Shown here piece after piece: positions 14,290 to 64,000 of a DNA stretch of 64,000 nucleotides; position 1 is the stretch's first letter; every line of letters begins with the position of its first letter. The position numbers and the translations under genes are program-made. The notes under the pieces are model-generated. The model saw only the letters and a program-made list of their open reading frames with translations, was not told the DNA's origin and did not search any database. This stretch comes from an uncultured Tateyamaria sp. GTDB lineage: Bacteria; Pseudomonadota; Alphaproteobacteria; Rhodobacterales; Rhodobacteraceae. Where the stretch lies: NCBI RefSeq assembly GCF_947488715.1, contig NZ_CANLAG010000002.1:620001-684000 (forward strand), written 5' to 3'.

Positions 14290-14379
14290 GGACAGGTGGC
14301 CGAGTGGTCGAAGGCGCACGCCTGGAAAGTGTGTAGGCGGGAGACCGTCTCCAGGGTTCGAATCCCTGTCTGTCCGCCA
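14290..14379 (+). tRNA. tRNA-Ser (anticodon GGA)
   Basis: A 90-base class II tRNA including encoded CCA (14377-14379). The acceptor stem pairs 14290-14296 with 14369-14375 and includes a G-T pair. The anticodon stem CACGC/GTGTG encloses loop CTGGAAA with anticodon GGA at 14324-14326. A long variable arm precedes the T arm GGGTTCGAATCCC. Serine identity rests on anticodon and long variable arm. Confidence 0.96.
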
Positions 14380-44871: not shown

Positions 44872-44881
44872 GGGGGCTGCC

Positions 44882-45679: not shown

Positions 45680-45690
45680 GGAGCAGACCC

Positions 45691-46392: not shown

Positions 46393-46404
46393 GGAGACTG
46401 CATC

Positions 46405-50009: not shown

Positions 50010-50712
50010 TGTCTTTTCCTTCTTCTACGTCGCCCACGCGCCGCATGCCCCAACTGGCCGCTGGGACCTTGTTGCCGGGGTGCTGTGGGTCTGTGCCCCA
50101 GATGGCCTGGTAAGTGTCCACTGCCATACCCCGCCTTTGCAACAGCGCAAAGGTCACAAAGAGACCGGCCCACCATATCGTGAGCGTCAGCCACATCCAG
50201 ACCGGGGCGTTGGCCTTCCACAGGCCCAGCACGATGGTCACGATGCCCGCGCAAATGGTGCCGTATCCGATGGTTTTGTGCAGCGCCTCAAACGCACGCC
50301 GCCACGGGGTCATGTCGTAGTGGTGTCCGCGCATCTGCGTGTCTGTCGGCCCACCTTTGGACCCGCGAAACAGGCCCAGCACGATCTGGATGGTTGCACC
50401 GACCAACACCGCGTATCCCAGCCAGTTGTGCCACGTCATGCTGGCGATGTCGCTGGGCAGCACAAGGATCAGCCCCAATACCGAAAGGCCAACGACAATG
50501 GATTGCCCCATCCAGTGACTGCGCCACCAGGTCTGATTGTCCAGCTCTTGGGGCCAGTTCTGGCCCGGCATCACCTTGAAGAATCGCGCGACCAACACCG
50601 CCAATGGCGCCAGCACACCCCATGCCACAACCATCAGCCGGGCGTGCCAAGACACCGCAAAGCCGATCTCGTGGGCGCGTGTCGCATCTATGGGGGCGAG
50701 CAGCCAGTCCAT
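49969..50712 (-). CDS. Cytochrome b561-domain membrane protein in a sugar operon
   Basis: A 247-residue protein with about five to six membrane helices and the cytochrome b561/DOMON-linked pattern. Candidate heme histidines occur in ISWHARLM-like text (VSWHARLMVVAWGVLAPLAV), SMTWHNWLGYAVLV and ALHKTIGYGTICAG. The start ATG overlaps the stop of the ABC permease gene (TGATG), so it is a true operon member. It would move electrons across or within the inner membrane. A link to sugar oxidation is inference from its position between a sugar permease and a lactonase. Confidence 0.78.
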   Translation of the reverse strand: MDWLLAPIDATRAHEIGFAVSWHARLMVVAWGVLAPLAVLVARFFKVMPGQNWPQELDNQTWWRSHWMGQSIVVGLSVLGLILVLPSDIASMTWHNWLGYAVLVGATIQIVLGLFRGSKGGPTDTQMRGHHYDMTPWRRAFEALHKTIGYGTICAGIVTIVLGLWKANAPVWMWLTLTIWWAGLFVTFALLQRRGMAVDTYQAIWGTDPQHPGNKVPAASWGMRRVGDVEEGKDNVRHHRGNRVRSH

Positions 50713-51647
50713 CAGCCTTTGACCGCTCCGGCGGTCATACCTGTGATGATCTGGCGTGACGCGAACAGAGTAAAGATGATCGGCGGAATGGCCAGCAGCA
50801 TGCCGGTCGCCATGATCACACCCCATTCCACATTGAACTCGGACATGTTGTTCACGATCAGGATCGGCACTGTCTTTGTGTCGCGGTCGCTGAGCGCGGA
50901 GGCCAGCAGGTATTCGTTCCAGGCGATGCGGAACGTAAAGATGGCAGCGGCCGCAAGTCCGGGTTTGATCAAGGGCAGAACCACTTTGAAAAAGACCTGG
51001 AACGGGCCCGCGCCATCGACGCGCGCAGCCTCTTCGAGGGATCGCGGCACTTGCACGATAAAGCTTTGCAGGATCCAGATCACAAACGGCAGGTTCATCG
51101 CCACATAGATCAGAATGATGCCCGAATGTGTCCCGGCGAGGCACACATCCCCCCTGCCCCCGAATGCCTCGCGGATGGCACCGCCGACCAAACCGTCGCG
51201 GTCCAGACAGAATTCGTTGTTCCACAGCCCAAACACAGGCACCAAAAGCACCGCAGGCGGGACCATGCGCACCATCAACGTGGTCAGCGACACGGTATCA
51301 CGCCCCATGAATCGGAAACGCACCAGTGCATAGGCGGCCATACATCCGATCACCAATGTCAGGATTGTGGACACCAGCGCGATGATGAGCGAGTTCACAA
51401 ACGCCCCGCCAAATTTCAGCGAGCAGAAATCAACGTGATCGGGTTCGTACCACAACACGTCACACAGAGCCTTCTCATAGTTCTGAATGGTCGGCAGAAA
51501 GATCAGTCCTGACGTGCCAGAAATGATGTCCACATCCAGCTTGAACGAGTTCATGAACATCAGGATCACAGGCCCGACGGACATAAATACCAACAAGGCG
51601 ATGACCGCATAGAAGGCCGGATTTGCTTTGGTGTTGGGAGATGACAT
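50712..51647 (-). CDS. CUT1 sugar ABC transporter permease (MalG-type) with cysteine-rich periplasmic loops
   Basis: A 311-residue permease with six membrane helices and the EAA loop SLEEAARVDGAGPFQVFFKV. Two loops predicted to be periplasmic are enlarged. The first carries Cys62 and Cys75. The second, between helices 3 and 4, carries Cys147 and Cys169 in a ~20-residue insert not usual for MalG proteins. Disulfides are possible. The start overlaps the upstream permease stop (ATGA). The substrate is unknown. Confidence 0.88.
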   Translation of the reverse strand: MSSPNTKANPAFYAVIALLVFMSVGPVILMFMNSFKLDVDIISGTSGLIFLPTIQNYEKALCDVLWYEPDHVDFCSLKFGGAFVNSLIIALVSTILTLVIGCMAAYALVRFRFMGRDTVSLTTLMVRMVPPAVLLVPVFGLWNNEFCLDRDGLVGGAIREAFGGRGDVCLAGTHSGIILIYVAMNLPFVIWILQSFIVQVPRSLEEAARVDGAGPFQVFFKVVLPLIKPGLAAAAIFTFRIAWNEYLLASALSDRDTKTVPILIVNNMSEFNVEWGVIMATGMLLAIPPIIFTLFASRQIITGMTAGAVKG

Positions 51648-52558
51648 CAGGTTTCCTCCTGCACGGCGGCGGTCAGGCGCGCGGCGCGGGCTTCTTGCCA
51701 GCGGTTGAAAACGAACATCGCCACGGTCAGGGCCAGCAGCAGCATCAGCAGGTAGTTAGACATCGCCGCCGCCACGCCAAGCTCACGGAATTCGGTGGCT
51801 GTCCGGCTGATCCGCAGGGCAAGGATTTCGGTCGACAGGCCCGGCCCCCCTTCGGTCATCACGAGGATCACTTCGAGAACCTTGAAGGCGTCGATGAGCC
51901 GCAAAAGCGCGGTTACGATGAGGACGGGCATCATCAAGGGCAGCTTGATGTGCACAATCTGTTGCCAGGCGGTTGCCCCGTCGATGCGGGCCGCTTCCAA
52001 CGCAGAGCGCGGCAGGGATTGCAACGCGGCCAGGGCAAGAATGAAGATAAACGGTGTCCACTGCCAAATGTCGGCAATGATGACGCTCATCAACGCGTGA
52101 TCGCCCAGCCAGTCGACACGGGGCAAACCCACGCTTTCCAGAAACCGGTTAAAGGTGCCCACAGTCGGGTGGTACATATAGCGCCACATCAGGCCCACCA
52201 CGACGGGTGCGATCATCATCGGCAGGATGAACATCGTACGCAGAACCGAGATGCCGCGGATGTCCCGGTCAAGCAGCAGCGCGAGACCGACGCCGATCAC
52301 CATTTCGATGCTGACGACGAAGAAGGCAAATCGCAACGTGACGCCAAGGCTTTCGTGAAAGTTGGGGTCGTTCCACAGTGTGATGTAGTTTTTCAGCCCG
52401 ACAAACTCGGCCTCGCCGATGGTTTGACTTGGGTTCCAGTCACGGAAGCTGCCCCAGATCATGTAACCCAGAGGGTACATCAGGGCGATCGCCATAATGA
52501 CCACGGCGGGCACCATAAACATGTAGGGGGTCAGCCGGTTGGGCATGGCCGTTCGCAT
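51647..52558 (-). CDS. CUT1 sugar ABC transporter permease (MalF-type)
   Basis: A 303-residue permease with six membrane helices and the EAA motif ALEAARIDGATAWQQIVHIK. It has no cysteines, unlike its MalG partner. It follows the binding-protein gene by 78 bp, a gap that contains a strong stem-loop. The short N terminus (MRTAMPNRLTPYMFMVPAVV) is typical of the glycerol-phosphate/sugar group. Confidence 0.9.
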   Translation of the reverse strand: MRTAMPNRLTPYMFMVPAVVIMAIALMYPLGYMIWGSFRDWNPSQTIGEAEFVGLKNYITLWNDPNFHESLGVTLRFAFFVVSIEMVIGVGLALLLDRDIRGISVLRTMFILPMMIAPVVVGLMWRYMYHPTVGTFNRFLESVGLPRVDWLGDHALMSVIIADIWQWTPFIFILALAALQSLPRSALEAARIDGATAWQQIVHIKLPLMMPVLIVTALLRLIDAFKVLEVILVMTEGGPGLSTEILALRISRTATEFRELGVAAAMSNYLLMLLLALTVAMFVFNRWQEARAARLTAAVQEET

Positions 52559-52596
52559 GACGGATCCTTGTGCGCTGAGTGTCTGCAGAGAGGGGT

Positions 52597-52624
52597 GGTG
52601 CGCGGCCCAACACCGCCGCGCACC
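52597..52624 (-). terminator. Intercistronic stem-loop after the CUT1 binding-protein gene
   Basis: GGTGCGCGGC and GCCGCGCACC form a perfect 10-bp GC-rich stem with an eight-base loop, 13 bases after the binding-protein stop. There is no T-run. It probably protects the upstream message or partly attenuates permease expression. Confidence 0.65.
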
Positions 52625-52636
52625 GAAGTGGTCAGA

Positions 52637-53965
52637 TTACTGCCACGTGTAGTAGCCGGCGTCTTCCATCACGGCTTTGGTCCGCTCGGCCACACCGTCC
52701 AGGGCTTCCTGGATGTCCAGGTCTTCGGTGAGAACCTTGGACATGGTTGTGCCGATGTCGGCGTTGATCTTACCCCAGACGGGGATGATCGGGCGCCAGT
52801 CGGGGTCGGCGTACTTCAGCGCTTCACCAAAGGTCGACGCGAACGGGAACTTTTCGTTCAGGCCTGCGTCCTGATAGGTCGAGAACCGCGAGGGGTTGCC
52901 ACCTTCCATGGCGACCATCAGGTCACCTTTCTTGGATGTGAGCCACTGCATCAGCAGGAACGCGGCTTCTTTGTTTTCCGCGTTCTTGGGGATGGCAATG
53001 CCGAACCCACCGGTCTGGCTGCCGCGGCGCACACCTTTGGGGTGCATTGCATAGCCAACCTTGCCGACAACCTTGGACCGCTCGGGGTTTTCGAAGCCGG
53101 GCATGAACGCGATGGAGTCCATGAACATGGCCGCATCACCGTTCGCAAAGGCGTTGGCGGCTTCGGCTGGGCCAAAGCTCATGGCGCCTTCGGGACCACA
53201 ATCGACAATGGTTTTCAACGCGTTGGCGGCTTCGACACCGGCGGCGTTGTTGATGATCGGGTTCCATGCGTCGTCAAAGACGCGACCGCCCAGTGGCGCG
53301 AGGTGCAACAGGAACGCGTGGCTGGCCTGGTGGCCCGAGGCCGCGCGCGACGCCATACCACCCATGCCCGGCTCGACTTCTGGCACTTTGCAGGCCGCAT
53401 CAAGCAGTTGGTCATAGGTTTCAGGTGTCGGGATACCGTGCTTTTCAAAGATGTCCTTGCGGTAGGCCAGAACAGAGGTCTCGGAGCCGAACGGAATACC
53501 AAAGAGCGAGCCGGTCTTGCCGGGCAGATACCCTTTGGTACCACCGGCCACGCCGATGTTCTCGACATAGCCATCAATTAGATCGTCCGCGTCATATGCG
53601 GGATCGGACAGACGTGGGTTCATAAAGAATTTGGCGAGGTTTTCCAGCTGATCGGCAAACACATAGTCCGCCTTGGAAAACACCACATAGGAGATCAGGT
53701 CGTATTCGCCCTCATCCTGCGCCAGTTCCAGCGTCTGACGCTCACGCATCTTGAGGTAAGGCAGCTGATCCACCTCGACTTCGATGCCTGTTTCCTTGGT
53801 GAACTCAGGCAGCACCTTCAGAACAGCGTTGTAATGTGGGTGCGCCGGGAAGTTCACGACGACAGTCGTGCCCGCGTATTCCTCGTAAGGGTTGGCAAAG
53901 GCCACCCCGGACATCAAGGCGGCAGTCGTCAGTCCGACAGCCGTGGATTTCAGTACTTTTAACAT
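52637..53965 (-). CDS. CUT1 extracellular solute-binding protein
   Basis: A 442-residue periplasmic protein with a signal peptide (VGLTTAALMSGVAFA) and the family 1 binding-protein fold: TVVVNFPAHPHYNAVLKVLP, LPYLKMRERQTLELAQ, and GGFGIAIPKNAENKEAAFLL near the C terminus. It is abundantly aromatic toward the C-terminal end, as in sugar binders. The ligand is unknown; the gnd/lactonase company suggests a sugar or sugar acid. Confidence 0.9.
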   Translation of the reverse strand: MLKVLKSTAVGLTTAALMSGVAFANPYEEYAGTTVVVNFPAHPHYNAVLKVLPEFTKETGIEVEVDQLPYLKMRERQTLELAQDEGEYDLISYVVFSKADYVFADQLENLAKFFMNPRLSDPAYDADDLIDGYVENIGVAGGTKGYLPGKTGSLFGIPFGSETSVLAYRKDIFEKHGIPTPETYDQLLDAACKVPEVEPGMGGMASRAASGHQASHAFLLHLAPLGGRVFDDAWNPIINNAAGVEAANALKTIVDCGPEGAMSFGPAEAANAFANGDAAMFMDSIAFMPGFENPERSKVVGKVGYAMHPKGVRRGSQTGGFGIAIPKNAENKEAAFLLMQWLTSKKGDLMVAMEGGNPSRFSTYQDAGLNEKFPFASTFGEALKYADPDWRPIIPVWGKINADIGTTMSKVLTEDLDIQEALDGVAERTKAVMEDAGYYTWQ

Positions 53966-53992
53966 GTGTTCCTCCCTAGAACTTATGATGTG

Positions 53993-55081
53993 TCAAAGTG
54001 CGTTTTCGTTCTTGCGATCAAAGAGATGGACGCCAGCCGAGTTCACCGCAAAGGTCAACGACTGACCCAGCGCCACCGGCGATTCCGAGTTGACCTCGAC
54101 CATGACGCGCGCCGGACCACAGCGGCACAACAACACGGATTGCGCGCCGACATATTCCGACACCTGCACATCCAGTTGCAGTGATTGCTCAGGGTTTGCG
54201 TTTTCCTCGAACCGCAGGTCGGACGGGCGAATGCCCAACGTCACGTCCTTGGCGCTGTGCGCCTTGGCGGTCGCCGCTTTTTCACCCTCCAGCAGGATGT
54301 CAAAGCCCTCGCCCACCACATGAATGGCCCCTGCCCGGTCATGGATTTCGCCGTCGAGAAAGTTCATCGGCGGCATCCCCATGAACCCGGCGACAAACTT
54401 GTTCACCGGCTTCTTGAACAGCTCTTCGGGCGTGCCTTGCTGTTGAATGTGGCCGCCGTGCATGACGACGATCCGGTCGGCCAGCGTCATCGCCTCGATC
54501 TGGTCGTGCGTGACGTAGATCATGTTTTTCTCGACACGTTGGCTCATCAAAGCCAACTCGGCCCGCATCTGTCCGCGCAGTTTGGCATCCAGGTTTGACA
54601 GCGGTTCATCAAAGAGGAAAATGCCACTGTCCTTGGCCAAGGCACGCGCCATTGCGACACGCTGGCGTTGACCGCCAGACAAAGCGCCGGGCTTGCGCGC
54701 CAGAAAGTCGGTCAACCCGACCATGTCGGCGACCTCCCTGACCTTGGCGTTGATTTCGGACTTGGGACGTTTGGCCAGACGCAGGGCAAAGCTGATGTTT
54801 TGCGCGACGTTCATGTGCGGATAAAGCGCGTAATCCTGGAACACCATGGCAAGGTCGCGTTGCTTGGGCTCCAGATGGCTGACCGGTTTGTCGTCGACAA
54901 ATATCTCTCCGTCAGAGACATCTTCGAGTCCCGCAATCATGCGCAGCGTAGTTGATTTCCCGCAACCAGACGGGCCAACCAGCACGGTGAACTCGTTGTC
55001 GGCCATTTCCAGGTTGATGCCGTGCAGGACCTCAACGTTGCCGTATCTTTTGACCAGATTTTCGAGCCGGATGGTTGGCAT
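53993..55081 (-). CDS. CUT1 ABC transporter ATP-binding protein (UgpC/MalK-type)
   Basis: A 362-residue ATPase: Walker [11 protein letters not shown], signature LSGGQRQRVAMARAL, Walker B FLFDEPLSNLDAKLRGQMRA, then a C-terminal OB-type regulatory domain (TLGIRPSDLRFEENA). The ATG at 55081 fits the domain start; an in-frame codon at 55147 would place the operators inside the gene. Two palindromic LacI operators lie directly upstream, and this is the first gene of a six-gene operon. Confidence 0.92.
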   Translation of the reverse strand: MPTIRLENLVKRYGNVEVLHGINLEMADNEFTVLVGPSGCGKSTTLRMIAGLEDVSDGEIFVDDKPVSHLEPKQRDLAMVFQDYALYPHMNVAQNISFALRLAKRPKSEINAKVREVADMVGLTDFLARKPGALSGGQRQRVAMARALAKDSGIFLFDEPLSNLDAKLRGQMRAELALMSQRVEKNMIYVTHDQIEAMTLADRIVVMHGGHIQQQGTPEELFKKPVNKFVAGFMGMPPMNFLDGEIHDRAGAIHVVGEGFDILLEGEKAATAKAHSAKDVTLGIRPSDLRFEENANPEQSLQLDVQVSEYVGAQSVLLCRCGPARVMVEVNSESPVALGQSLTFAVNSAGVHLFDRKNENAL

Positions 55082-55098
55082 TGTGTCATTCTCACTTT

Positions 55099-55134
55099 TG
55101 TTACCGGTCACATTAGCAATTGTGACCGGTAACA
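55099..55134. promoter_or_regulatory. Double LacI-type operator upstream of the CUT1 operon
   Basis: TGTTACCGGTCACA (55099-55112) and TGTGACCGGTAACA (55121-55134) are perfect inverted copies of each other, 22 bp centre to centre (two helical turns) with TTAGCAAT between. Each is itself a near-palindrome with the CG centre typical of LacI-family sites. They lie 18 bases before the ATPase start and just after the lacI stop. Confidence 0.82.
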
Positions 55135-55179
55135 CAAGAAAAAACACCGGCGTTAACCTATTGATTACCTACGGTTTTG

Positions 55180-56211
55180 CTATTTCGTGCTGCCGCGAAA
55201 AGTCAGATCGACCTGAACGGACACCAATTTGCGACTCGCATCCGAGTCACGCGACAGCAATTCGCCAATCAGTTTTCCGGTCTCCCGTCCGATGGTCTTG
55301 GGATCGACGGACACGGTTGAGATCGGTGGCATGGCGAACCGCGACACCTCGAAATTGCCAAAACCTGCAACACCAATGTCGCCGGGCACGTTGCGACCAA
55401 ATGCGGGCATGGCCGACAGCACGCCAAAGGCTGGTGCATCCGACACACAGAACACGCAGTCGGTGTCTGGAAAAGTCTCGAACAATCGGTTGGTCGCGGC
55501 AGCGCCATCCTCAATCGACAGAGGCGGTTTGCCGATTTTCAGCACCCGGTCCGTTGGCAGACCCGCTTCGGTCATGGCATCGACATACCCTTTGCGCCGC
55601 GCCGCGCCACGGGTCCAGTCGTCATCCGCCTCACCCAGAAAGGTGATGTTCCGGTATCCTTTAGCGATCAAGGCACGGGTCATATCGGCCGCCGCCTGCC
55701 TGTTGGAAAACCCGATTGTATGGCCAATCGGGTCGTCTGGCCGTTCCCACAGCTCAATCACAGGGACATGCGCATCGCTGAGCAATGCGACCGTGCGGTC
55801 CGAATGCCCGTCATAAGACAGAACAATCGCCTCTGGTCGGCGTTTCAGCATGTCCTCGACCAGCTGTTCTTCGCGCTCAATCGAATAGTCGGTGTGTCCC
55901 AACAGGATTTGCTGGCCAAATTGCTCCAACTCTTCGGTCAACGCCTGGACGGTTTCGGCAAAGTGAAGGTTGTTCAGAGACGGCACCAGTACGGCCACGA
56001 ACCCAGAGCGTTTGGTGCTGAGACTGCCCGCCATGTGGTCGGGGACATAGTTCATGTCCCGCACAACCTTTAGGATCCGTTCGCGCGTATCCTGGGAAAT
56101 AGGGCTGTCTTTTTTCAACGCCCGGCTCACGGTCATCCGCGAGACACCGGCGGCGCGGGCGACATCCCGCATGGTCACGGGGCCGGAAGGTTTTGTGGGG
56201 GCTTGGGCCAT
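55180..56211 (-). CDS. LacI-family transcriptional repressor of the CUT1/gnd regulon
   Basis: A ~343-residue regulator. The helix-turn-helix and hinge read TMRDVARAAGVSRMTVSRAL and HMAGSLSTKRSG; a periplasmic-binding-protein-like effector domain follows (FVAVLVPSLNNLHFAETVQA). The ATG at 56211 is preferred: the longer frame begins with GTG at 56277 without a ribosome site and would cover an operator at 56223-56236. It likely represses the CUT1 operon, gnd, the GlcG-like gene and itself, with a sugar or sugar phosphate as inducer. GntR-type LacI proteins that bind gluconate are similar. Confidence 0.9.
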   Translation of the reverse strand: MAQAPTKPSGPVTMRDVARAAGVSRMTVSRALKKDSPISQDTRERILKVVRDMNYVPDHMAGSLSTKRSGFVAVLVPSLNNLHFAETVQALTEELEQFGQQILLGHTDYSIEREEQLVEDMLKRRPEAIVLSYDGHSDRTVALLSDAHVPVIELWERPDDPIGHTIGFSNRQAAADMTRALIAKGYRNITFLGEADDDWTRGAARRKGYVDAMTEAGLPTDRVLKIGKPPLSIEDGAAATNRLFETFPDTDCVFCVSDAPAFGVLSAMPAFGRNVPGDIGVAGFGNFEVSRFAMPPISTVSVDPKTIGRETGKLIGELLSRDSDASRKLVSVQVDLTFRGSTK

Positions 56212-56222
56212 ATCACGCAGGG

Positions 56223-56236
56223 TGTTCGCGGTAACA
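56223..56236. promoter_or_regulatory. Candidate autoregulatory operator before lacI
   Basis: TGTTCGCGGTAACA differs at two positions from TGTTACCGGTAACA and ends 12 bases before the lacI ATG. The position would allow self-repression. It is the weakest member of the operator set. Confidence 0.45.
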
Positions 56237-56263
56237 ATGCGCGTCAAGGCCTTTGTCAGGGAA

Positions 56264-56293
56264 ATGGGCGCAAACACACAGGAATGCGCCCAT
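56264..56293 (-). terminator. Stem-loop after the LuxP-like binding-protein gene
   Basis: ATGGGCGCA and TGCGCCCAT form a perfect 9-bp stem with a 12-base loop, ten bases after the stop. The trailing T-run is weak. It probably ends the CUT2 block before lacI. Confidence 0.6.
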
Positions 56294-56302
56294 AAACCAA
56301 AG

Positions 56303-57448
56303 TTAGCGTTTCAGCGCGCCAACACCGGAGAAGCGGAATGCCTCTTGTTCCAGAGCGTCGATTTCCTCGGCGCTCATCTGATCATGGGCGACCGTGATCC
56401 GACCCAGGAAGACGAAGGGCAGTTCGTCTGCGCGGTCTTCAAGATCAGCCTTGATCGCTTCGGCTGTTGCCGCGCCCACGTCATCACCCATGCGCATGGG
56501 TGTGGCGTCCAGCTCGCCGCGGCGGATGGCGTCCAGTTCCAGCCCTGTGCCGCCCCAACCGGTCGAGAAGATCTCTTTCTCTTTGCCGACGGACACTTGT
56601 GCCTCAACGCTGCCCATCGCCATGGCGGTGTTGGCGTTGTGGATGATCGTAGCCTCTGGATAGGATTGCAGGATCAGCGATGTGCCGGCAAAGCCGCCTT
56701 CGCGCTGATACTCACCGTAGTGTTCATAGACGGTGTTCCAGCCTGCTTTTTCCTCGACGCATGCTTTGAAATCGCCCGAGCGCTGGTTGTCGGTGATACC
56801 CGGAATACCCCGGTTCATCGCCATTGTGACGCCTTCGCCCAGACGACCGATCATATAGTCGCACATGGTCAACGCACCCGCAGCAGACGAGAAGTCGAAC
56901 CATGCCGCTGGCTGGTGTTCAAGATCCTTGAGCGGAGTGTGGAAGGCCCAGACATAGGTGGTCAGATCGTCGGTTTCTGCCGCCAGTTTGGAAATGTTGT
57001 CTGCCTGAATGGCCAGTTCCGAGGGGCCAAAGACGACATAGTCATAGACGTCCTTGTCCAGCACCACTTGGTTGGCATAGGTCGTTTGCAACGAATGTTC
57101 GACCTGACGCGATGCGAATTCGGTTGTTTCATACTCGATGCCCAACTGATCCAAACGCTTGGTCATGGCCAGATAGTTGCGGGCCCAGAAGTCCGAAGTG
57201 TCCGACGACGGATAGATCAAAGCGATCTGGATCGGCGCGTCTTGCGAGCCGCTGAATTTCACAGCGTCGCTGCCGACGACCGCTTGCATGGCCTCCAGCT
57301 TGCCTTCGGCATTCACCTCAAGCGGCACCCAGTAGTCGCGATCTTCGATACCGGGCAGTTCCTTCAGCGGCAGGGTCGCATGGCCATCTGCCAGTGCCAT
57401 GCCTGTCATCGCTGTTGCCACGAGGGCTGTGGTTGCTAAAAGTCTCAT
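56303..57448 (-). CDS. LuxP-like periplasmic binding protein encoded with an ABC transporter
   Basis: A 381-residue secreted protein (signal ALVATAMTGMALA) of the sugar-binding type. It resembles LuxP, the autoinducer-2 receptor of Vibrio: SDFWARNYLAMTKRLDQL against LuxP's SDYWVRN..., STGWGGTGLELDAIRRGELD, and PMRMGDDVGAATAEAIKADL. From recalled LuxP residues, equivalents of Ser79, Trp82, Arg215, Thr266, Trp289 and Arg310 appear kept, while Gln77, Asn159 and Asp267 look changed to Asp, Ala and Ala. No LuxQ-type kinase is present; a CUT2 permease and a single-domain ATPase precede it. A related furanose sugar ligand is equally possible. Confidence 0.78.
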   Translation of the reverse strand: MRLLATTALVATAMTGMALADGHATLPLKELPGIEDRDYWVPLEVNAEGKLEAMQAVVGSDAVKFSGSQDAPIQIALIYPSSDTSDFWARNYLAMTKRLDQLGIEYETTEFASRQVEHSLQTTYANQVVLDKDVYDYVVFGPSELAIQADNISKLAAETDDLTTYVWAFHTPLKDLEHQPAAWFDFSSAAGALTMCDYMIGRLGEGVTMAMNRGIPGITDNQRSGDFKACVEEKAGWNTVYEHYGEYQREGGFAGTSLILQSYPEATIIHNANTAMAMGSVEAQVSVGKEKEIFSTGWGGTGLELDAIRRGELDATPMRMGDDVGAATAEAIKADLEDRADELPFVFLGRITVAHDQMSAEEIDALEQEAFRFSGVGALKR

Positions 57449-57473
57449 CTTGGTTCCTCCCTTTGCAATGAGA

Positions 57474-57523
57474 GCGGGGCCATCGGCCGGGTCGAGGCTG
57501 CACCCTCGGCCTGGCCACCCCGC
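57474..57523 (-). other. Long intercistronic stem-loop before the LuxP-like gene
   Basis: An outer stem GCGGGG/CCCCGC (57474-57479 and 57518-57523) encloses a 13-bp inner stem with two G-T pairs (57485-57497 with 57504-57516) and a six-base loop. It fills most of the 85-bp gap between the permease stop and the binding-protein start. It may stabilise the downstream message. Confidence 0.6.
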
Positions 57524-57533
57524 ATTTGGCCGT

Positions 57534-58661
57534 TTACCCGCTGTTCACGGTGTCCCCGGCAAAGACGCCGCCGATTGCAAGCAAGGCAATCAACACGCCG
57601 ATCAGAAGTGCGGAAAAGCGCACGAGTTTCTGACCTTCCGCGGTTTTGAGGTCGGCAAACCAGCCGCCCCCGCCATCGCGATCTTTCTTTTGAATCCAGG
57701 CATAAAGCGCCACCGAGCTGATAATCACAAAGCCCGACGCCACTGGCTGCCAGAAGAATTCAATCCGCAGTGTCACCAGTGCGTTCAGCATCATGGCGAG
57801 CAGCAACACGCCCGAGAACGATCCGATGATGGATGCGCGCCCACCAAACAGCGATGTGCCCCCAACAACCACCGCCGCAATGACGTGCAGGTTAAAGAAT
57901 GGCGCCATCGTTGCCTGAATGGCGTTCTGTTTGCCGGTCAGCATCAGACCGGCCAGCGCCGCACAGGCACCACACAGCACATAGGCATAGACCTTGTGAC
58001 GTTTCACGCCGATGCCGGTAAGCTCCGCCGATTCCGGGCTGGACCCGATGGCGACGGTGTAGCGGCCAAAATGCGTGCGTTGCAGGATGTAGTAGCCTGC
58101 GATCATCGTCAGAATCCCGATCACGGCAGGCGTGGGGATAAAGAACGGCGTTTGACCGCGCCCCATTTCCGTCAACACGTCCGGAAAGCGTGCCAGAACC
58201 AGACCCTTGGCCAAGAGCAGCGCGAGGCCCTTGTAAACCAGATCCATCGCCAGCGTCCCGATCAGATCGGGTACGTTCAGGCGCGTGATGATCAGACCGT
58301 TGATCAGGCCCAGAAGCGCGCCAATCGACAACGCAATCGGAATGCCGACATAGATCGAGAACCCGAATTGCTTGACCAGAAACGCCATGATGATGGCCGA
58401 CAGAACGGCAACCGATCCGACGGACAAGTCAATGCCGCGCTGGGTGATGACAAAGGTCATCGCCATCGCCATCGGCATATAAAGGGCGGCGTCCTGCAGG
58501 ATCAGTTCAAGGTTGCTGATCCGGTAGAACCGATCAGGCGAGGCCACGGCCATGAACAGGAAAATGGCGGCAATCATCGCCATCGGCGCGATGACAGCCA
58601 TATACGGCTCAAGCCGTTCGCTCAGCGGCGGCTTATAGTCTGCGTCAACTGCGGTGTTCAT
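57534..58661 (-). CDS. CUT2 ABC transporter permease (RbsC-type)
   Basis: A 375-residue permease with about ten membrane helices and the CUT2 patterns MTFVITQRGIDLSVGSVAVL, LINGLIITRLNVPDLIGTLA and VVVGGTSLFGGRASIIGSFS. A C-terminal segment after a WIQKKDRDGGGGWF linker adds one more helix. The ATG at 58661 follows AAGGAGGA and overlaps the ATPase stop. It should form a transporter with the neighbouring ATPase and the LuxP-like protein. Confidence 0.9.
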   Translation of the reverse strand: MNTAVDADYKPPLSERLEPYMAVIAPMAMIAAIFLFMAVASPDRFYRISNLELILQDAALYMPMAMAMTFVITQRGIDLSVGSVAVLSAIIMAFLVKQFGFSIYVGIPIALSIGALLGLINGLIITRLNVPDLIGTLAMDLVYKGLALLLAKGLVLARFPDVLTEMGRGQTPFFIPTPAVIGILTMIAGYYILQRTHFGRYTVAIGSSPESAELTGIGVKRHKVYAYVLCGACAALAGLMLTGKQNAIQATMAPFFNLHVIAAVVVGGTSLFGGRASIIGSFSGVLLLAMMLNALVTLRIEFFWQPVASGFVIISSVALYAWIQKKDRDGGGGWFADLKTAEGQKLVRFSALLIGVLIALLAIGGVFAGDTVNSG

Positions 58662-59419
58662 GCTGCGTCCTCCTTGGCGCCAACGATCATGCCCAGCACT
58701 TCCTGGGTCGAGCTGTCTGCTGTCAGCACCACGCCAACGCATTGGCCCCGGCGCTGCACGTGAACGCGGTCGGCGACTTCGAACACGTCATCCAGCGAGT
58801 GGCTGATCAGGATCACGGCGAGGCCCTGGGCCTTGAGCGCCTTGATCAGTTTCAGGGTGCGCGCTGTTTCCTGCGGACCCAGGGCGGCGGTGGGTTCGTC
58901 CATCACCAGCACCCGAAGGCCCTCGTGATACACGGCGCGCGCAATGGCCACGGCCTGACGCTGCCCGCCCGACAGGCTGTCGGTGGGGGCGTCCAGTGAT
59001 TTCAGACGCACGCCAAGGCGTTCCATCAGGACCCGCTCGGTCTCGGACCGCATCTTTTTGTTGTCGAGCACGGTGATGCCGAACACTTTTTTGGTCAGCT
59101 CATTGCCCAGAAACATGTTGGCCGCAGGATCAAGGTGATCGGCCAGCGCAAGTGTCTGATAGACCGCGTCAATGCCCGCTCTGGCGGCATCTGCGTGGTT
59201 GGAAAATTCGATCTTTTGCCCGTCGAGGTAAATGTCGCCCTCGGTCGGTTGGTAAACGCCTGTCAGCACTTTGATCAGGGTCGACTTGCCGGCGCCGTTG
59301 TCGCCCACGATGGCGAGCACCTCGCCTGCATATGCCGACAGGTCGACGCCCGCCAATGCGGTGACCCCGCCGAACCGTTTTGTGATGCCCGTCATCTGGA
59401 CAAGGGGTGTCTCTTGCAT
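58658..59419 (-). CDS. CUT2 ABC transporter ATP-binding protein, single-domain
   Basis: A 253-residue ATPase: Walker A GDNGAGKSTLIK, signature LSGGQRQAVAIARA, Walker B VLVMDEPTAALGP, then an H-loop in ILISHSLDDVFEVADRV. It has only one nucleotide-binding domain, whereas classical RbsA proteins have two; single-domain forms (FrcA-like) are known in Alphaproteobacteria. GGAGG precedes the ATG at 59419. The stop overlaps the permease start. Confidence 0.9.
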   Translation of the reverse strand: MQETPLVQMTGITKRFGGVTALAGVDLSAYAGEVLAIVGDNGAGKSTLIKVLTGVYQPTEGDIYLDGQKIEFSNHADAARAGIDAVYQTLALADHLDPAANMFLGNELTKKVFGITVLDNKKMRSETERVLMERLGVRLKSLDAPTDSLSGGQRQAVAIARAVYHEGLRVLVMDEPTAALGPQETARTLKLIKALKAQGLAVILISHSLDDVFEVADRVHVQRRGQCVGVVLTADSSTQEVLGMIVGAKEDAA

Positions 59420-59490
59420 GGCGTTATCCTCCGCCAACTCGGATGGGTGGCGCGGATTGTGCGCCGAAACTTTGGTCGTATCTGCAAAGT

Positions 59491-59523
59491 GCAGGGCCCC
59501 GAGCACTCACACCGGGACCCTGC
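59491..59523 (-). terminator. Intercistronic stem-loop after the first CUT2 binding-protein gene
   Basis: GCAGGG/CCCTGC (59491-59496 and 59518-59523), one mismatch, then CCCG/CGGG form an imperfect hairpin just after the binding-protein stop. No T-run. It is similar in position to hairpins after the other binding-protein genes here. Confidence 0.5.
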
Positions 59524-59533
59524 GGGGAGGACC

Positions 59534-60574
59534 CTATTTCCCCCAAATGGTCGCGTAAGCGTCGCGATAAGGGATGTCAGGGTCAAACGCGTTGCTGTCG
59601 CCCAGCTTGGCCAAACCTTCGGGTGTCACCAGTGCGGGCGATGTGATGTAGCCCGAGCAGGGTTCGCCCTGGATCGCACGGTTGAGCTCATCAACGAGCT
59701 GCCAGCCTTGCAGGTTCAGCGGCTCAGCCACTGTGATCGCCTGGTAGCCGTTCGACCGAATACGCTGGAACGCAGCTTCGGAACCGTCACCAGCAGACCC
59801 CGCTTGGGGACCGGCATCGGGCGACAGACCTGCGGCTGCCAGCGACGGCCCCATAAAGTCGAAATACAGGTCGTTGATCGCCAGCGCGTGTGTCCAGCTG
59901 TCACCGTATTTCTGCAACAGCGATGTGGTCAGCGGGCCCATACGTGTCGATGTATCGGCAATCGGCGTGTCCACATATTCAAGGACCTTGCCACCGGCGG
60001 CTTCCACGGTTTCCTTGAGGCGGTCTGCCTTGTCGATGGCGATCTGATAGGTGCTGTCGGTAAAGATGACGACACCGATGTCCTTGCCACCATCGTCAAT
60101 GGCCCACTCGGCGGCCACTTCGGAAACGGTCATCGCGTCGGTCGACACGTTGGAAAAGATCCCGCCGGGTGCATCGCAGCCGATTTTCGGACCAGAGTGC
60201 CACGCCACCATCGGAATATCCGAGGCAACAACACCTTCCAATGCGGCCTGCTGTTCCACGGCATCAAATCCGTTGATGATGATCCCGTCGGCCTTGAGCG
60301 CAAGCGCCTGACCGATTGCGGCTGTACGACCCTGAATGGAGCCCGCACCGTCCAGAACCCGCACGTCCCAGCCGATTTTGGCCGCGGCCTCTTCGACGCC
60401 GTTCGTGACGCCCAGGATGCCGCCGTTTTTCAGGTCACCGGCCACAACCACAATGGATTTGCCGTCTGCACCGGCGGGTCCTGTGGTGGGTCCGTCCCAA
60501 CCGTCGGCCAGAACCGGCAGGCTGGTGAGCATCGTTGTGGCCAAAAGCCCCGCAACAAATGTTCTCTTTTTCAT
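59534..60574 (-). CDS. CUT2 sugar ABC transporter substrate-binding protein
   Basis: A 346-residue secreted protein: signal peptide MKKRTFVAGLLATTMLTSLP, then the ribose-binding-type fold (VVVAGDLKNGGILGVTNGVE, ALALKADGIIINGFDAVEQQ, IAINDLYFDFMGPSLAAAG). The ATG at 60574 follows GGGAGGAA. It is not closely similar to the LuxP-like protein 2 kb away. The ligand is unknown; sugars or polyols fit. Confidence 0.88.
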   Translation of the reverse strand: MKKRTFVAGLLATTMLTSLPVLADGWDGPTTGPAGADGKSIVVVAGDLKNGGILGVTNGVEEAAAKIGWDVRVLDGAGSIQGRTAAIGQALALKADGIIINGFDAVEQQAALEGVVASDIPMVAWHSGPKIGCDAPGGIFSNVSTDAMTVSEVAAEWAIDDGGKDIGVVIFTDSTYQIAIDKADRLKETVEAAGGKVLEYVDTPIADTSTRMGPLTTSLLQKYGDSWTHALAINDLYFDFMGPSLAAAGLSPDAGPQAGSAGDGSEAAFQRIRSNGYQAITVAEPLNLQGWQLVDELNRAIQGEPCSGYITSPALVTPEGLAKLGDSNAFDPDIPYRDAYATIWGK

Positions 60575-60602
60575 GTGTCTTCCTCCCTTTGCAATTTCAG
60601 TC

Positions 60603-61625
60603 TCAGCGCTTGTCTGCACCTTTTTTGCGCTGAGCGTATCCCGCGATGCCGATGGCAATCAGCAGGGTTACTCCGTTGAACAGCGGCTCGACCCAGAAGG
60701 AGCCGCCGAATTGTTGAATGCCGGAAATGCCGACCGCCAGAATGGCCACACCCACGATGGTGCCCCAGACGTTGACGCGCCCCGGTTTGATGGTGGTTGA
60801 TCCAAGGAACGCACCCACAAGAGCCGGCAGCAGGAATTCCAGACCGACAGAGGCTTGTCCGATCCGCAATTTCGACGCCAGCAAGACCCCGGCCAGCGCC
60901 GTCATTGTGCCGCTCGCCACAAAGGCGCCGATCACGTATTTGCGGGTTGGAATACCGTTCAGTTGGGCCGCTTTTTGATTGGCGCCAATGGCATAGAGAT
61001 ACCGACCGATGGGCGTGTATTCGAGGATGATCCACATCACGACCGTGATCACCACGAGGTAATAGGCGGTGATGGGCAAGCCGAACACAAATGTGGTGTT
61101 GAGCGCGTAAAACCCGTCAGGCAACAGCCCCACCATCTGACGCCCGCCCGTGTGCCACAGCGCCAGCGCGTAGAGGACCGTGCCGGTGCCAAGCGTCGCG
61201 ATAAAACTGTCAATCTTGGCCACTTCGACCAGCAGACCGTTCAGGAAACCGGCTGCAGCACCCAGCACCAGAACCACGGCCACCGCGATGGGCCAGGGCA
61301 AGCCCAGCATGGTTTGCAGGCTGATGGCCAGAATATGCCACAGCACGATGCCATACCCGACAGTCAGGTCGATGCGACCAGCGGCCATTGGGATCATGGC
61401 CCCCAGGGACAAGAGCGCGATAATCGCTTTGTCCGAGATGATGGACCGCAGGTTCAGCATGGTCGGGAACGTGTTTGGCAACAGCACCGAGAACAGACCG
61501 ATCAGGAACACCGTCAGAATGACCAGACCATAGACCGGCAGGAAACGCATGATGCGCTTGCCCGTGCTCAGGCCCTTCAGTTCGGCGGAGGTCGGCTCCA
61601 GTGCGCCGGATTCAAGCGATTGCAT
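60603..61625 (-). CDS. CUT2 ABC transporter permease (RbsC-type, second system)
   Basis: A 340-residue permease with about nine to ten helices: LGAMIPMAAGRIDLTVGYGI, GAAAGFLNGLLVEVAKIDSF and a FLGSTTIKPGRVNVWGTIVG region. The 'RIDLTVG' variant of the usual GGIDLSVG motif is notable. It begins inside the ATPase gene's 3' end (14-bp overlap) and precedes the binding-protein gene by 28 bp. Confidence 0.9.
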   Translation of the reverse strand: MQSLESGALEPTSAELKGLSTGKRIMRFLPVYGLVILTVFLIGLFSVLLPNTFPTMLNLRSIISDKAIIALLSLGAMIPMAAGRIDLTVGYGIVLWHILAISLQTMLGLPWPIAVAVVLVLGAAAGFLNGLLVEVAKIDSFIATLGTGTVLYALALWHTGGRQMVGLLPDGFYALNTTFVFGLPITAYYLVVITVVMWIILEYTPIGRYLYAIGANQKAAQLNGIPTRKYVIGAFVASGTMTALAGVLLASKLRIGQASVGLEFLLPALVGAFLGSTTIKPGRVNVWGTIVGVAILAVGISGIQQFGGSFWVEPLFNGVTLLIAIGIAGYAQRKKGADKR

Positions 61626-63138
61626 CGACCGCGTTCCCTTCTGTCTTGATGTTTCCAGCCGAGGCCGACTGGATCAGATTTTCTGTCGTGAGACGCGTCC
61701 CGCTCAACTCGTCCACGATCGCCCCTTGGCTAAAGACGATTGCGCGGTGGCAGATGGTGGCGATTTCCTCAAAGTCCGTGGACATAATCAGGATCGCGAC
61801 ACCGTCGCCAAGGGCACGGTTCAACAACGCATAGATTTCAGATTTGGCGCCAACATCCACACCGGCGGTCGGGTCTTCGCAAATCAGCAGCTTGCGCTTG
61901 GTGGCGAGCCAACGGCCAATGACGACCTTTTGCTGGTTGCCGCCGGACAGCGCTTCGATGGCCAGTGTCGGATCGTTGGGCGAGAGGCCCAGCTCTGCGC
62001 CGATGATTGCGGCCTGTTCTGCTTCGACGCGCGGCGACAAGAGGTTCAGCAACTTGCGGCCAATGCCGTCGGGGTTAAGGAACGTGTTCTCGCGGATCGA
62101 CAGGCTCATGGCGACCGACTCTTCGGTCCGCTCCTTTGCGACCAGTCCGACCCCTGACCGCAACGCGCGTTGCGGCGACGACAGGTCCGGTTCTTCGCCC
62201 GCCAACTCGACCGTCCCGGTGTAAGGCACAAGGCCAAACAACGCGCGAGAGATCGCCTCGTGCCCTGCCCCGCGCAAGCCGACCAGACCCAGCACTTCGT
62301 TCTTCTGCAGGTCAAACTCCAGCGTCTGCATACCCGGCACTTCAAAATTTCGTACACTCAGCACAGGCGCGCCAATGGCGTCTGTCGCCTTGACCGTCTC
62401 GCGGGTTTTACGCCCAACAATCTTCTGAACCAATTCCTCTGGCGTGGTGTGGTCGATGTTGCGCACGCCAACCATCGAGCCGTCCCGCAACACAGCAACC
62501 CGGTCCGCAATCTGAAAGATCTCGTCCAGCCGGTGCGACACATAGATCATGCCAACACCGCGTTCGCGCAGTGGGCGCAGCGCTGTAAACAGCCGTTCCA
62601 CCTCATCCGCGGGCAAGGACGCCGTGGGCTCATCAAGCACCAGAAACTCGCTGTCCACCGCCAAGGCACGGGCAATCGCCACCAAAGACTTTTCAGTGCG
62701 GCTCAGGTCTTCGACGCGGGTGGTTGGATCGAAATCGCAATCCACTTTCTTGAGCGCCTCAACGGCAAAATGTTCGACGTCCCGCCATTGGATCAATCCG
62801 TTTTTGCGGGAAAAGCCCAAGGCCAGACTGATGTTTTCGGCGACCGTCATCCATTCGATCAGGCCAAGGTCCTGGTGGATAAACGCAACCTTTTGACGCT
62901 CACCAAACCCGGCCGGTTTGTGCTGATAAGGTTCGCCATCGATCAGGACCCGGCCACCGTCGGGCGTGTGAATCCCGCCCAGCACTTTGATCAAGGTCGA
63001 CTTGCCCGCGCCATTCTCCCCGAGCAAGGCAACGATCTCGCCCCGCCCCACGGTCAACGACACATCCTTGAGCGCGTAAGTCCCGCCAAAATGCTTGTCG
63101 ATGCTGTCAAAAAACAAACCCGTTTGCAGGTTTGGCAT
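61612..63138 (-). CDS. CUT2 ABC transporter ATPase with two nucleotide-binding domains (RbsA-type)
   Basis: A 508-residue tandem ATPase. The first domain has Walker A GENGAGKSTLIKV and Walker B FLVLDEPTASLP. The second has the degenerate P-loop GLRGAGHEAISRALFG usual in this family, and the signature LSGGNQQKVVIGRWL. GGGAGGA precedes the ATG. It is the first gene of the minus-strand CUT2 block; an operator-like repeat lies 41 bases upstream. Confidence 0.92.
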   Translation of the reverse strand: MPNLQTGLFFDSIDKHFGGTYALKDVSLTVGRGEIVALLGENGAGKSTLIKVLGGIHTPDGGRVLIDGEPYQHKPAGFGERQKVAFIHQDLGLIEWMTVAENISLALGFSRKNGLIQWRDVEHFAVEALKKVDCDFDPTTRVEDLSRTEKSLVAIARALAVDSEFLVLDEPTASLPADEVERLFTALRPLRERGVGMIYVSHRLDEIFQIADRVAVLRDGSMVGVRNIDHTTPEELVQKIVGRKTRETVKATDAIGAPVLSVRNFEVPGMQTLEFDLQKNEVLGLVGLRGAGHEAISRALFGLVPYTGTVELAGEEPDLSSPQRALRSGVGLVAKERTEESVAMSLSIRENTFLNPDGIGRKLLNLLSPRVEAEQAAIIGAELGLSPNDPTLAIEALSGGNQQKVVIGRWLATKRKLLICEDPTAGVDVGAKSEIYALLNRALGDGVAILIMSTDFEEIATICHRAIVFSQGAIVDELSGTRLTTENLIQSASAGNIKTEGNAVDAIA

Positions 63139-63178
63139 GGCGCGTCCTCCCAGACACAGGCCCCAACGTATCCGTTGA

Positions 63179-63190
63179 GTTACCCGTAAC
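63179..63190. promoter_or_regulatory. LacI-type operator candidate proximal to the CUT2 block
   Basis: GTTACCCGTAAC, arms GTTAC/GTAAC about a CC centre. The surrounding 15-mer AGTTACCCGTAACGT recurs 57 bp away in the same orientation. It is 41 bases before the ATPase start. Confidence 0.65.
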
Positions 63191-63235
63191 GTTACGCTAG
63201 CATCACGTCAGAGCGCGCGCTCTGTCAAGGCTTAA

Positions 63236-63247
63236 GTTACCCGTAAC
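63236..63247. promoter_or_regulatory. LacI-type operator candidate proximal to the divergent lacI gene
   Basis: A second GTTACCCGTAAC, within the repeated 15-mer at 63235-63249. It ends 18 bases before the lacI GTG. Paired with the site at 63179 it could support looping or dual control. Confidence 0.65.
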
Positions 63248-63264
63248 GTAAGATGGCGTGAAAC

Positions 63265-64000
63265 GTGGAAAAGCAGAACAAAAACAACAAAGTAAGCCTA
63301 TCTCAGGTGGCCAATGCCGCCGGGGTGTCCAAAATGACTGCAAGCCGTGTTTTGCGCGGCGAAGGCGGGTACTCGGAACAAACGCGGGTCAAGGTCATGG
63401 CGCAGGTCGACGCCCTTGGCTATCTGCCGAATCGTTTGGCGACGGTTTTTGCGGGCGACCAAAGCTCCACCTTCATCGGGGTGTCGATCCCGGACCTCGG
63501 AAACGAGGTCTTTGCACAGGTCCTGGAGGGCATCGACCGCAAGCTTGGGACGTTCGGATACCAGTCGGTTCTGGGCCTCACACAGCACACGCTGGAAGAG
63601 GAAGAAAACTGGATCAAGACGGTGCTGTCGTGGCAACCCGCAGGGCTGATTTTAACCGGCCGCTACCACTCTGCGCGGGCCACGGACATGCTGCGCAATG
63701 CCGGTGTTCCGGTGGTCGAGATCTGGGATCTGAACGCCGCACCGCTCGACATGAGCGTGGGCATCAACCACTTTGACAGCGGCTTTGACATGGGCCGATA
63801 CCTGACCTCTTTGGGGTATCAAAACATCGGATACGTTGGGACGTCACACGACACCGCAAACGCAGCAACAGAGCGATTGCATGGGTTTTGCAAGGCCGTC
63901 GAGGGTGCAGGCGGCGCCGTGGTCAAGCAGCTTTGCCTGCACGATACGGCGACGTATTATCCCGGTTTCTACGGCACCGAACAGTTGCTGGCCGCAGCAC
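63265..64000 (+). CDS. LacI-family transcriptional regulator, 3' end beyond window
   Basis: At least 245 codons, open to the right edge. The N terminus after the GTG at 63265 reads KVSLSQVANAAGVSKMTASR, a LacI helix-turn-helix, followed by the hinge LGYLPNRLA and an effector domain (FIGVSIPDLGNEVFAQVLEG, ILTGRYHSARATDMLRNAGV). It resembles GntR/Gnt-II-type members. It is divergent from the CUT2 block, with two identical operator-like repeats between them, so it probably controls that block and itself. About a quarter of the protein lies outside. Confidence 0.9.
   Translation, partial: MEKQNKNNKVSLSQVANAAGVSKMTASRVLRGEGGYSEQTRVKVMAQVDALGYLPNRLATVFAGDQSSTFIGVSIPDLGNEVFAQVLEGIDRKLGTFGYQSVLGLTQHTLEEEENWIKTVLSWQPAGLILTGRYHSARATDMLRNAGVPVVEIWDLNAAPLDMSVGINHFDSGFDMGRYLTSLGYQNIGYVGTSHDTANAATERLHGFCKAVEGAGGAVVKQLCLHDTATYYPGFYGTEQLLAAA

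Follow-up and report, generated by a model that had tools for sequence, protein, structure and literature searches.

The LuxP-like protein and its importer genes

The window analysed here is a 64,000-nucleotide stretch of an uncultured Tateyamaria sp. genome (contig NZ_CANLAG010000002.1, positions 620,001 to 684,000), and near its right end lies an operon for an ATP-binding cassette (ABC) importer whose binding protein resembles LuxP, the autoinducer-2 (AI-2) receptor of Vibrio (coordinates in Table 1). The N-terminus of this protein, judged by eye, resembles a Sec signal peptide. In a phmmer search of all PDB chains its best match is LuxP (131 bits, E 6e-37, residues 53–374), and the next are ribose-type binders at 34 bits (E 1.2e-7) and weaker; the difference between 131 and 34 bits rejects the idea that the similarity is due to chance or lies at the level of the fold only. 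In an AlphaFold model (34-row alignment A1; pLDDT 88, pTM 0.86), LuxP chains take Foldseek ranks 1–8 (best E 2.4e-30, TM-score 0.82 by query), and the best non-LuxP matches are again ribose binders, from E 6.1e-19. By sequence and modelled fold the protein is LuxP-like, as an earlier note on this DNA had supposed, and LuxP is its closest relative among solved structures on both counts; it shares with Vibrio LuxP (1JX6, 1ZHH, 2HJ9) the fold, about 29% identity and the GWGG and MRM(N/G)DD segments. An early guess that it serves apiose import was dropped: PDB entry 5ibq, which presumably holds apiose, is not among its matches, being a weak match (29.9 bits) of a Vibrionaceae paralogue discussed below, and the sister entry 4ry0 stands at fold rank 16 for the window model.

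The operon combines Peripla_BP_4 (binding protein), BPD_transp_2 (permease) and ABC_tran (ATPase) domains, the set expected of a CUT2 importer, with permease and ATPase preceding the binding protein as the same note described. The permease start was set at the ATG that overlaps the ATPase stop codon; its open reading frame (ORF) extends up to 58,742. Two fused ATPase domains, a usual if not universal CUT2 trait, are not present here, and because the other CUT2 parts are in place the one-domain ATPase is read as a variant of that type. One-domain CUT2 ATPases are known, for example FrcA of the FrcBCA importer. The LuxP-like protein thus serves as binding protein to a CUT2 ABC importer whose ATPase has a single domain. 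Ribose-type RbsABC importers share its permease and ATPase families and a Peripla_BP_4 binding protein, but the window protein, which carries the LuxP arginines discussed below, matches RbsB at only 34 bits, and the ATPase has one domain, not two. No LuxQ-type sensor kinase was found adjoining the operon, in line with the earlier note; ABC genes and LacI regulators lie there instead. A second, complete CUT2 operon (59,534–63,138) is directly upstream, 114 bases from the ATPase gene; the earlier note makes no mention of it.

The protein is not a plain LuxP orthologue. LuxP works with LuxQ and the window protein with an ABC importer; the window protein is separated from the LuxP/histidine-kinase clade by a starred branch (100/99 in one tree and 100/100 in another, the bootstrap of the latter not having settled and the over-long ORF calls of the deep rows L106, L159 and L160 having been trimmed N-terminally for it), and both types occur together in 9 of 150 Vibrionaceae genomes. 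Relatives were confirmed by a scan of species genomes, 138 in all, and the top 80 serve as loci here (L numbers below denote these and other stretches). These are mostly from Rhodobacterales, with others from Roseibium, Hoeflea and Kiloniellaceae and a few records labelled Granulosicoccaceae or Thiotrichales; a sample across the phylum gave a match of any kind at E 1e-10 in 18 of 398 genomes. Gene calling places the binding protein within its cluster in 76 of the 80 loci, and permease and ATPase homologues in 75 each (some missed calls are at contig ends). Published surveys describe LuxP as nearly restricted to Vibrio, with a few regulator-linked relatives, and place LsrB in Rhodobacter and Sinorhizobium (PMC2561040, PMC524169). 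CUT2 importers as such are already known; for the ABC-linked LuxP-like clades, no description was found in the open-access literature searched.

Binding pocket and predicted ligand

Seven residues hydrogen-bond AI-2 in 1JX6, namely Ser79, Arg310, Arg215, Thr266, Asn159, Trp82 and Gln77, according to PMC9687752. In alignment with 1JX6, Ser79, Trp82, Arg215, Thr266, Trp289 and Arg310 of LuxP correspond to S85, W88, R223, T274, W298 and R319 of the window protein, while Gln77, Asn159, Ser265 and Asp267 are replaced by D83, A168, N273 and A275; five of the seven AI-2 contacts are thus kept, and Gln77 (to Asp) and Asn159 (to Ala) are changed. The six retained residues, both arginines included, and the changes at 77, 159 and 267 are those that the earlier note had listed. 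Conservation was read from an alignment of 78 sequences of the window's clade (clade A: the window, L106 and 76 of the 80 loci, L010, L016, L046 and L060 having no binding-protein call in their cluster), 12 Vibrionaceae paralogues (clade B), 8 LuxP sequences including 1JX6 (clade C) and 10 histidine-kinase-linked relatives (clade D); L001, a duplicate of the window locus, was omitted, as was L094 from the LuxP rows (partial call, stop inside the match). Ser79, Arg215, Thr266, Trp289 and Arg310, among others, are invariant in all 108 rows and Trp82 is kept in 106, so that the two borate-flanking arginines are present in 78/78 clade A sequences. Gln77, Asn159 and Asp267 are replaced in the same 78/78: position 77 is Asp in 77 (Tyr in the other), position 159 is Ala in 77 (Gly in the other) and position 267 is always Ala. 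There are 24 fixed differences in all between the LuxP side (clades C and D) and clades A and B. Gln77, Asn159, Asp179, His180, Asp267, Asn287 and Gly292 are each found in 18/18 rows of the former, whereas the latter have Asp77, Ala159 and Ser179 (89/90 each) and Ser180, Ala267, Thr287 and Thr292 (90/90 each). The deeper ABC-linked rows A2 (L159–L162 and L197) share Asp77, Asn265 and Ala267 with the window protein and yet keep Asn159 and, where scored, His180, which weighs against a simple division of pockets between LuxP and ABC-linked proteins. RbsB has Glu and Gln in the two arginine columns, in an alignment of low identity. Virtual screening has led to the proposal that a sulfone touches this arginine pair in LuxP (PMC3794749), so the pair may not be borate-specific.

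The protein forms its own branch of the LuxP family and is the capture component of a CUT2 importer, and on balance it seems somewhat probable that this importer takes up acidic sugars of the aldonate type, a ligand inferred from the pocket and from the genes nearby. In the periplasm the protein would close on idonate, ketogluconate, gluconate or another aldonate or keto-aldonate (in some hosts, on C4 acids), and R223 and R319 are proposed to hold the sugar carboxylate where LuxP holds the borate anion, the hydroxyls being read by D83, N273 and the W167-A168-F169-H170 loop. The loaded protein would then dock on a permease dimer driven by two ATPase copies, and the upstream LacI regulator would induce this importer together with the second CUT2 importer. 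Inside the cell the acid would be reduced or phosphorylated, and nearby dehydrogenases and kinases would pass the product to central metabolism.

Enzymes of that kind are encoded in the same genome, in stretch L082, 8–12 kb upstream of the LuxP-like gene. They comprise a GntK/IdnK-type gluconokinase (183.7 bits, cut-off 113.75), a HIBADH-family reductase that is tartronate-semialdehyde-reductase-like (best model 2-hydroxy-3-oxopropionate reductase, 231 bits, below the cut-off of 397), an IdnO-like short-chain dehydrogenase/reductase (SDR) and an IdnD-like dehydrogenase, whose nearest PDB entry is L-idonate 5-dehydrogenase. Their association with the importer was measured in 50 of the 80 host genomes, which were searched for IdnO-like SDRs, the LuxP-like protein and RbsB-like controls. 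An IdnO call meant at least 62% identity to the copy in the window's own genome (43 of the 50 genomes; weaker matches were dropped before the count), near meant on the same contig within 20 kb, and the controls were 135 of the 150 RbsB-like rows listed (more existed). An IdnO-like gene is near the LuxP-like gene in 24 of 43 genomes but near only 2 of the 135 controls among those listed (Fisher p 6e-16), a genomic association with sugar-acid catabolism; since the genomes are related and neighbouring importers travel with the gene, this p value measures the cluster more than the LuxP-like operon. The clearest cases of a link between the enzymes and the LuxP-like operon by itself are L200, in which SDR (IdnO), reductase, LacI, ATPase, permease and LuxP-like genes are co-directional without a second importer between them, and L048, L050, L052 and L057, in whose stretches no gene of the second importer was called.

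Other hosts have other enzymes at the locus. IdnO at 62% identity or more was not found in 7 of the 50 genomes, and five of these seven have a set of propeller, PdxA-like, enolase-superfamily dehydratase, dihydrodipicolinate synthase-family and aldehyde dehydrogenase genes by the LuxP-like gene (two of the five, L030 and L032, hold weaker SDR matches of 41% and 51%); the set is found within 8 kb in 6/50 genomes. It is also annotated in Phaeobacter inhibens, where in strain S4Sm it is co-directional with the two importers, and in Ruegeria pomeroyi DSS-3, where genes for a LacI regulator, a tripartite ATP-independent periplasmic (TRAP) importer and a heme-binding protein intervene. The R. pomeroyi orthologue of the LuxP-like protein is SPO_RS21100 (84% identical), and SPO_RS21115 is the CUT2 binding protein neighbouring it. 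A tetronate set, assigned by Pfam family, is present in four of the 50 genomes (four Kiloniellales-type loci); we take its members to be OtnI, OtnC, OtnK and LtnD, and the one kinase scanned exceeds the 3-oxo-tetronate kinase cut-off (551 versus 350 bits). One or another of the three sets occurs in 34/50 genomes. Among the deeper ABC-linked paralogues (49–54% identity), found alongside the main type in 4 of 50 genomes, two of four loci (L159, L160) have an SDR inside the operon, and the deeper member L106 is preceded by genes for an HpcH/HpaI aldolase and an Ldh_2 dehydrogenase.

Several observations weigh against an acidic-sugar ligand. The IdnO-like and IdnD-like proteins of the window's own genome fall under their NCBIfam equivalog cut-offs (321 against 408 bits and 353 against 469, respectively), the deeper paralogues are near IdnO in 0 of 4 cases, and in 16 of the 50 genomes all three enzyme sets are missing from the vicinity. 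The cluster holds up to three importers, plus the TRAP importer in R. pomeroyi, and the enzymes may serve one of the neighbours. Finally, PMC12268683 reports AI-2 binding by three sensory domains sampled among 267 LuxP receptor proteins (Proteobacteria and Deferribacterota), which may or may not represent this clade.

If the enzymes acted only after oxidation in the cell, and the arginines only hydrogen-bonded hydroxyls, the ligand could be a neutral furanose, lactone or polyol (a pentose, aldonolactone or sugar alcohol). The ribose and allose binders that are the nearest non-LuxP proteins would fit this, as would the SMP-30 and propeller genes of the clusters, the resemblance of the IdnD-like enzyme to sorbitol and xylitol dehydrogenases as well, and the FGGY kinase and medium-chain dehydrogenase found with the distant ABC-linked row F (L198). 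We nevertheless think it rather unlikely, given both arginines in every one of the 108 rows at columns where RbsB has Glu and Gln in the low-identity alignment, and conserved neighbours that start at the level of the acid (GntK, 3-oxo-tetronate kinase, enolase-superfamily dehydratase).

One of the two readings offered in the earlier note is the scavenging of AI-2 or a related furanosyl compound; here the signal would be made by neighbouring cells. LuxP as the closest solved protein, the five retained contacts out of the seven described for 1JX6, a relative at 37% identity in an LsrK operon, Asn159 in the deeper rows L159, L160, L161, L162 and L197 (with His180 in those scored) and AI-2 binding by the three sampled LuxP-type proteins all speak for it. 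The changes in the window protein are, however, not confined to Gln77 and Asp267: Asn159, Asp179, His180, Asn287 and Gly292, common to LuxP and the LsrK-linked clade, are all replaced, and where Vibrionaceae have a true LuxP, the same genome retains a distinct paralogue that has the clade A pocket. The window's own genome yielded no LuxS (a control search was positive in 5 of 14 named genomes), nothing matching LsrB (in a search that lacked a positive control) and no LsrK that is close, whether in the operon or elsewhere, the best match being 26% identical and on other contigs; these absences make AI-2 unlikely as the ligand, and the neighbours are sugar-acid enzymes. The protein is also not of LsrB type (21.6 bits, E 0.034). 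The Lsr system of E. coli K-12 is likewise a CUT2-type importer, but the window system differs from it in having a binding protein with no detectable similarity to LsrB, no LsrK neighbour and a single-domain ATPase. AI-2 uptake by the window protein thus appears improbable. A role primarily in sensing or chemotaxis, for example as a co-receptor, with transport second, is more improbable still: Vibrionaceae homologues at 54–60% identity do adjoin a HAMP-GGDEF-EAL protein, in stretches where the window permease and ATPase have no relative at E 1e-10, but no receptor gene adjoins in the window, and a dedicated permease and ATPase are called in 75 of the 80 loci.

The surrounding gene cluster

Two operator-like palindromes precede the second CUT2 operon, in the divergent promoter region it shares with a LacI-family gene, and because the 14-base motif has no further site in 56,303–63,177 at up to two mismatches, both CUT2 operons are read from the sequence as one likely six-gene transcript. 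Between the gene of its binding protein (SBP2) and the ATPase gene, the minus strand of 59,420–59,533 can form a strong hairpin (z –3.2 against shuffles), which may protect the end of the upstream messenger; a hairpin ahead of the LuxP-like gene is unremarkable (z –0.91) and was set aside. SBP2 was rejected as a close LuxP relative, since in PDB it matches nothing but one ribose-type binder, with 23 bits. Of the 80 loci, 62 have one or more genes of the SBP2 importer, 29 have a CUT1-group gene and 35 an SMP-30/gluconolactonase-family gene. The CUT1 importer downstream, in the same gene cluster, is probably a separate unit. Between a CUT1 permease and the SMP-30 gene there is an ORF at about 49,969–50,700 (minus strand), with a similar ORF (cluster 14) in 12 loci. 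The start of the IdnO-like gene, on the side facing the IdnD-like gene, has tandem TGATACCGATAACA repeats (about 5098–5125 of L082, or 68,098–68,125 in window coordinates, outside the window), probably operators of a second LacI regulator. Elsewhere in the window, 43,546–47,094 (plus strand) holds a permease, an ABC ATPase, PhoU and a response regulator, an ordinary phosphate cluster by Pfam, and a tRNA gene at 14,290–14,376 (plus strand) is the only Rfam match above gathering score.

Table 1. Features of the window (upper rows, window coordinates) and loci of related clades (last two rows, coordinates of each stretch)
Feature	Position	Strand	Basis or remark
LuxP-like periplasmic binding protein, 381 aa	56303-57448	-	ORF and sequence search
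CUT2 permease, BPD_transp_2, 375 aa	about 57534-58661	-	Pfam
Single-domain ABC ATPase, 253 aa, one ABC_tran domain	58658-59419	-	Pfam
SBP2, second CUT2 binding protein, Peripla_BP_4	59534-60574	-	Pfam
Second CUT2 permease	60603-61625	-	
Second CUT2 ATPase, tandem-domain RbsA/AraG type	61612-63138	-	
Two AGTTACCCGTAACG copies, LacI-operator-like palindromes	63178-63248 (at 63178 and 63235)		promoter region between the six-gene operon and the divergent regulator gene
Divergent LacI-family regulator (cluster 6), runs past window end	63265-64000	+	named by eye from sequence
LacI-family regulator	55180-56277	-	best NCBIfam matches GntR and IdnR, both under cut-off
Two LacI-operator-like palindromes, TGTTACCGGTCACA and TGTGACCGGTAACA	55099-55134		ahead of CUT1 genes
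CUT1-type importer genes: UgpC-like ATPase, binding protein, two putative permease ORFs	50712-55147	-	
SMP-30/gluconolactonase-family protein, end of CUT1 group	49086-50009	-	Pfam
Clade B examples	L103 9428-14210; L104 9256-14024		plus ten more Vibrionaceae stretches
Clade E operon loci	L165 4271-14167; L194, L195, L196		

Relatives beside signalling and AI-2 genes and the descent of LuxP

The clade B protein, whose hosts we infer to be Vibrionaceae, is present in 14 of 150 genomes and is 54–60% identical to the window protein (54–56% for Vibrio records in the plasmid collection). Nine of the 14 also have a second match, about 30% identical, which in the three examined (L100–L102) is a true LuxP beside a LuxQ-like gene. 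In all 12 stretches read, the clade B gene is divergent from an SBP2 homologue, and that homologue is followed by a gene for a protein 70–87% identical to the GGDEF-EAL protein of L104 (split by an insert in L154); Pfam finds GGDEF and EAL domains in the L103 and L104 copies, the only two scanned, and HAMP in that of L104. By this arrangement, homologues of the binding proteins of both CUT2 operons in the window are paired beside a cyclic di-GMP (c-di-GMP) protein. At E 1e-10 none of these 12 stretches yielded a relative of the window permease or ATPase. In the trees, clade B falls together with the main ABC-linked rows and the deeper ABC rows stay outside (fork 100/100 and 88/99 in two trees), provided that the root is on the LuxP side or further out. 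The gene arrangement recalls NspS-MbaA, a polyamine-binding protein with a c-di-GMP receptor, in that a periplasmic binder stands beside a GGDEF-EAL membrane protein, and differs from it in that the Vibrionaceae binders are a LuxP-like protein and an SBP2 homologue.

Clade E consists of a protein on plasmid pRA01 of Roseicitreum antarcticum (H9529_RS19310, 37% identical to the window protein) and those of three other genomes; the family search found it in 4 of 394 genomes, the first row being the Roseicitreum locus itself. All four loci encode a permease, the LuxP-like protein, a one-domain ATPase, RbsD, an LsrG-like protein, a class II aldolase, an LsrR-like regulator and LsrK (L194–L196, like L198, were re-read by tblastn owing to gene-caller errors, which affected L083, L195 and the binding protein of L196). 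The Lsr scores were taken for the Roseicitreum copies only: LsrK reaches 784 bits against a cut-off of 528 and is 55% identical to E. coli LsrK, and the LsrG-like (109.6 against 135) and LsrR-like (292 against 486) proteins are below theirs. In the pocket, Asn159, Asp179, His180, Asn287 and Gly292 of LuxP are present in 4/4, with Glu at 77 and Ala or Ser at 267 (five near-identical rows were left out of this comparison and of the tree with the 88/99 fork). Clade E is therefore a candidate AI-2 importer in which a LuxP-type protein would take the place of LsrB, and because it adjoins LsrK, LsrR-like and LsrG-like genes, a LuxP-type AI-2 importer probably exists, elsewhere than in the window.

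In a tree of 28 rows rooted with one RbsB, the ABC-linked clades form the background and LuxP is derived, with clade E sister to LuxP and its kinase-linked relatives; this node is not starred (89/83), a topology that instead keeps clade E among the ABC clades passes the AU test (p-AU 0.094), and clade E is thus weakly placed as LuxP's sister. The long outgroup branch, which also attracts row F (L198), leaves the root insecure. Trees of the kind envisaged earlier put the window protein outside the LuxP/histidine-kinase clade, and the second reading of the earlier note, in which a sugar importer reveals the origin of LuxP, is supported in outline, with weak support at the key node. We tentatively suggest, as a possibility rather than a probability, that LuxP arose within a family of binding proteins of ABC importers, as one of its branches, that the arginines of this family first served carboxylates, and that the family was rewired at least twice, to histidine kinases in LuxPQ and, through the paralogue of the window protein, to a GGDEF-EAL protein in Vibrionaceae; with the LsrK-linked clade E as sister, AI-2 uptake would have preceded AI-2 signalling.

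If this is true, LuxP did not arise as a receptor, and a feeding protein was turned into a receptor for communication. LuxP is the textbook AI-2 receptor, and a well-conserved ABC-linked family with the same arginines and a different sugar side offers a comparison for AI-2 specificity, as well as a caution that LuxP homologues should not all be annotated as AI-2 receptors. For AI-2 import by a LuxP-type protein, clade E is a concrete candidate, and the paralogue that Vibrionaceae carry next to the GGDEF-EAL protein may be a second input to c-di-GMP.

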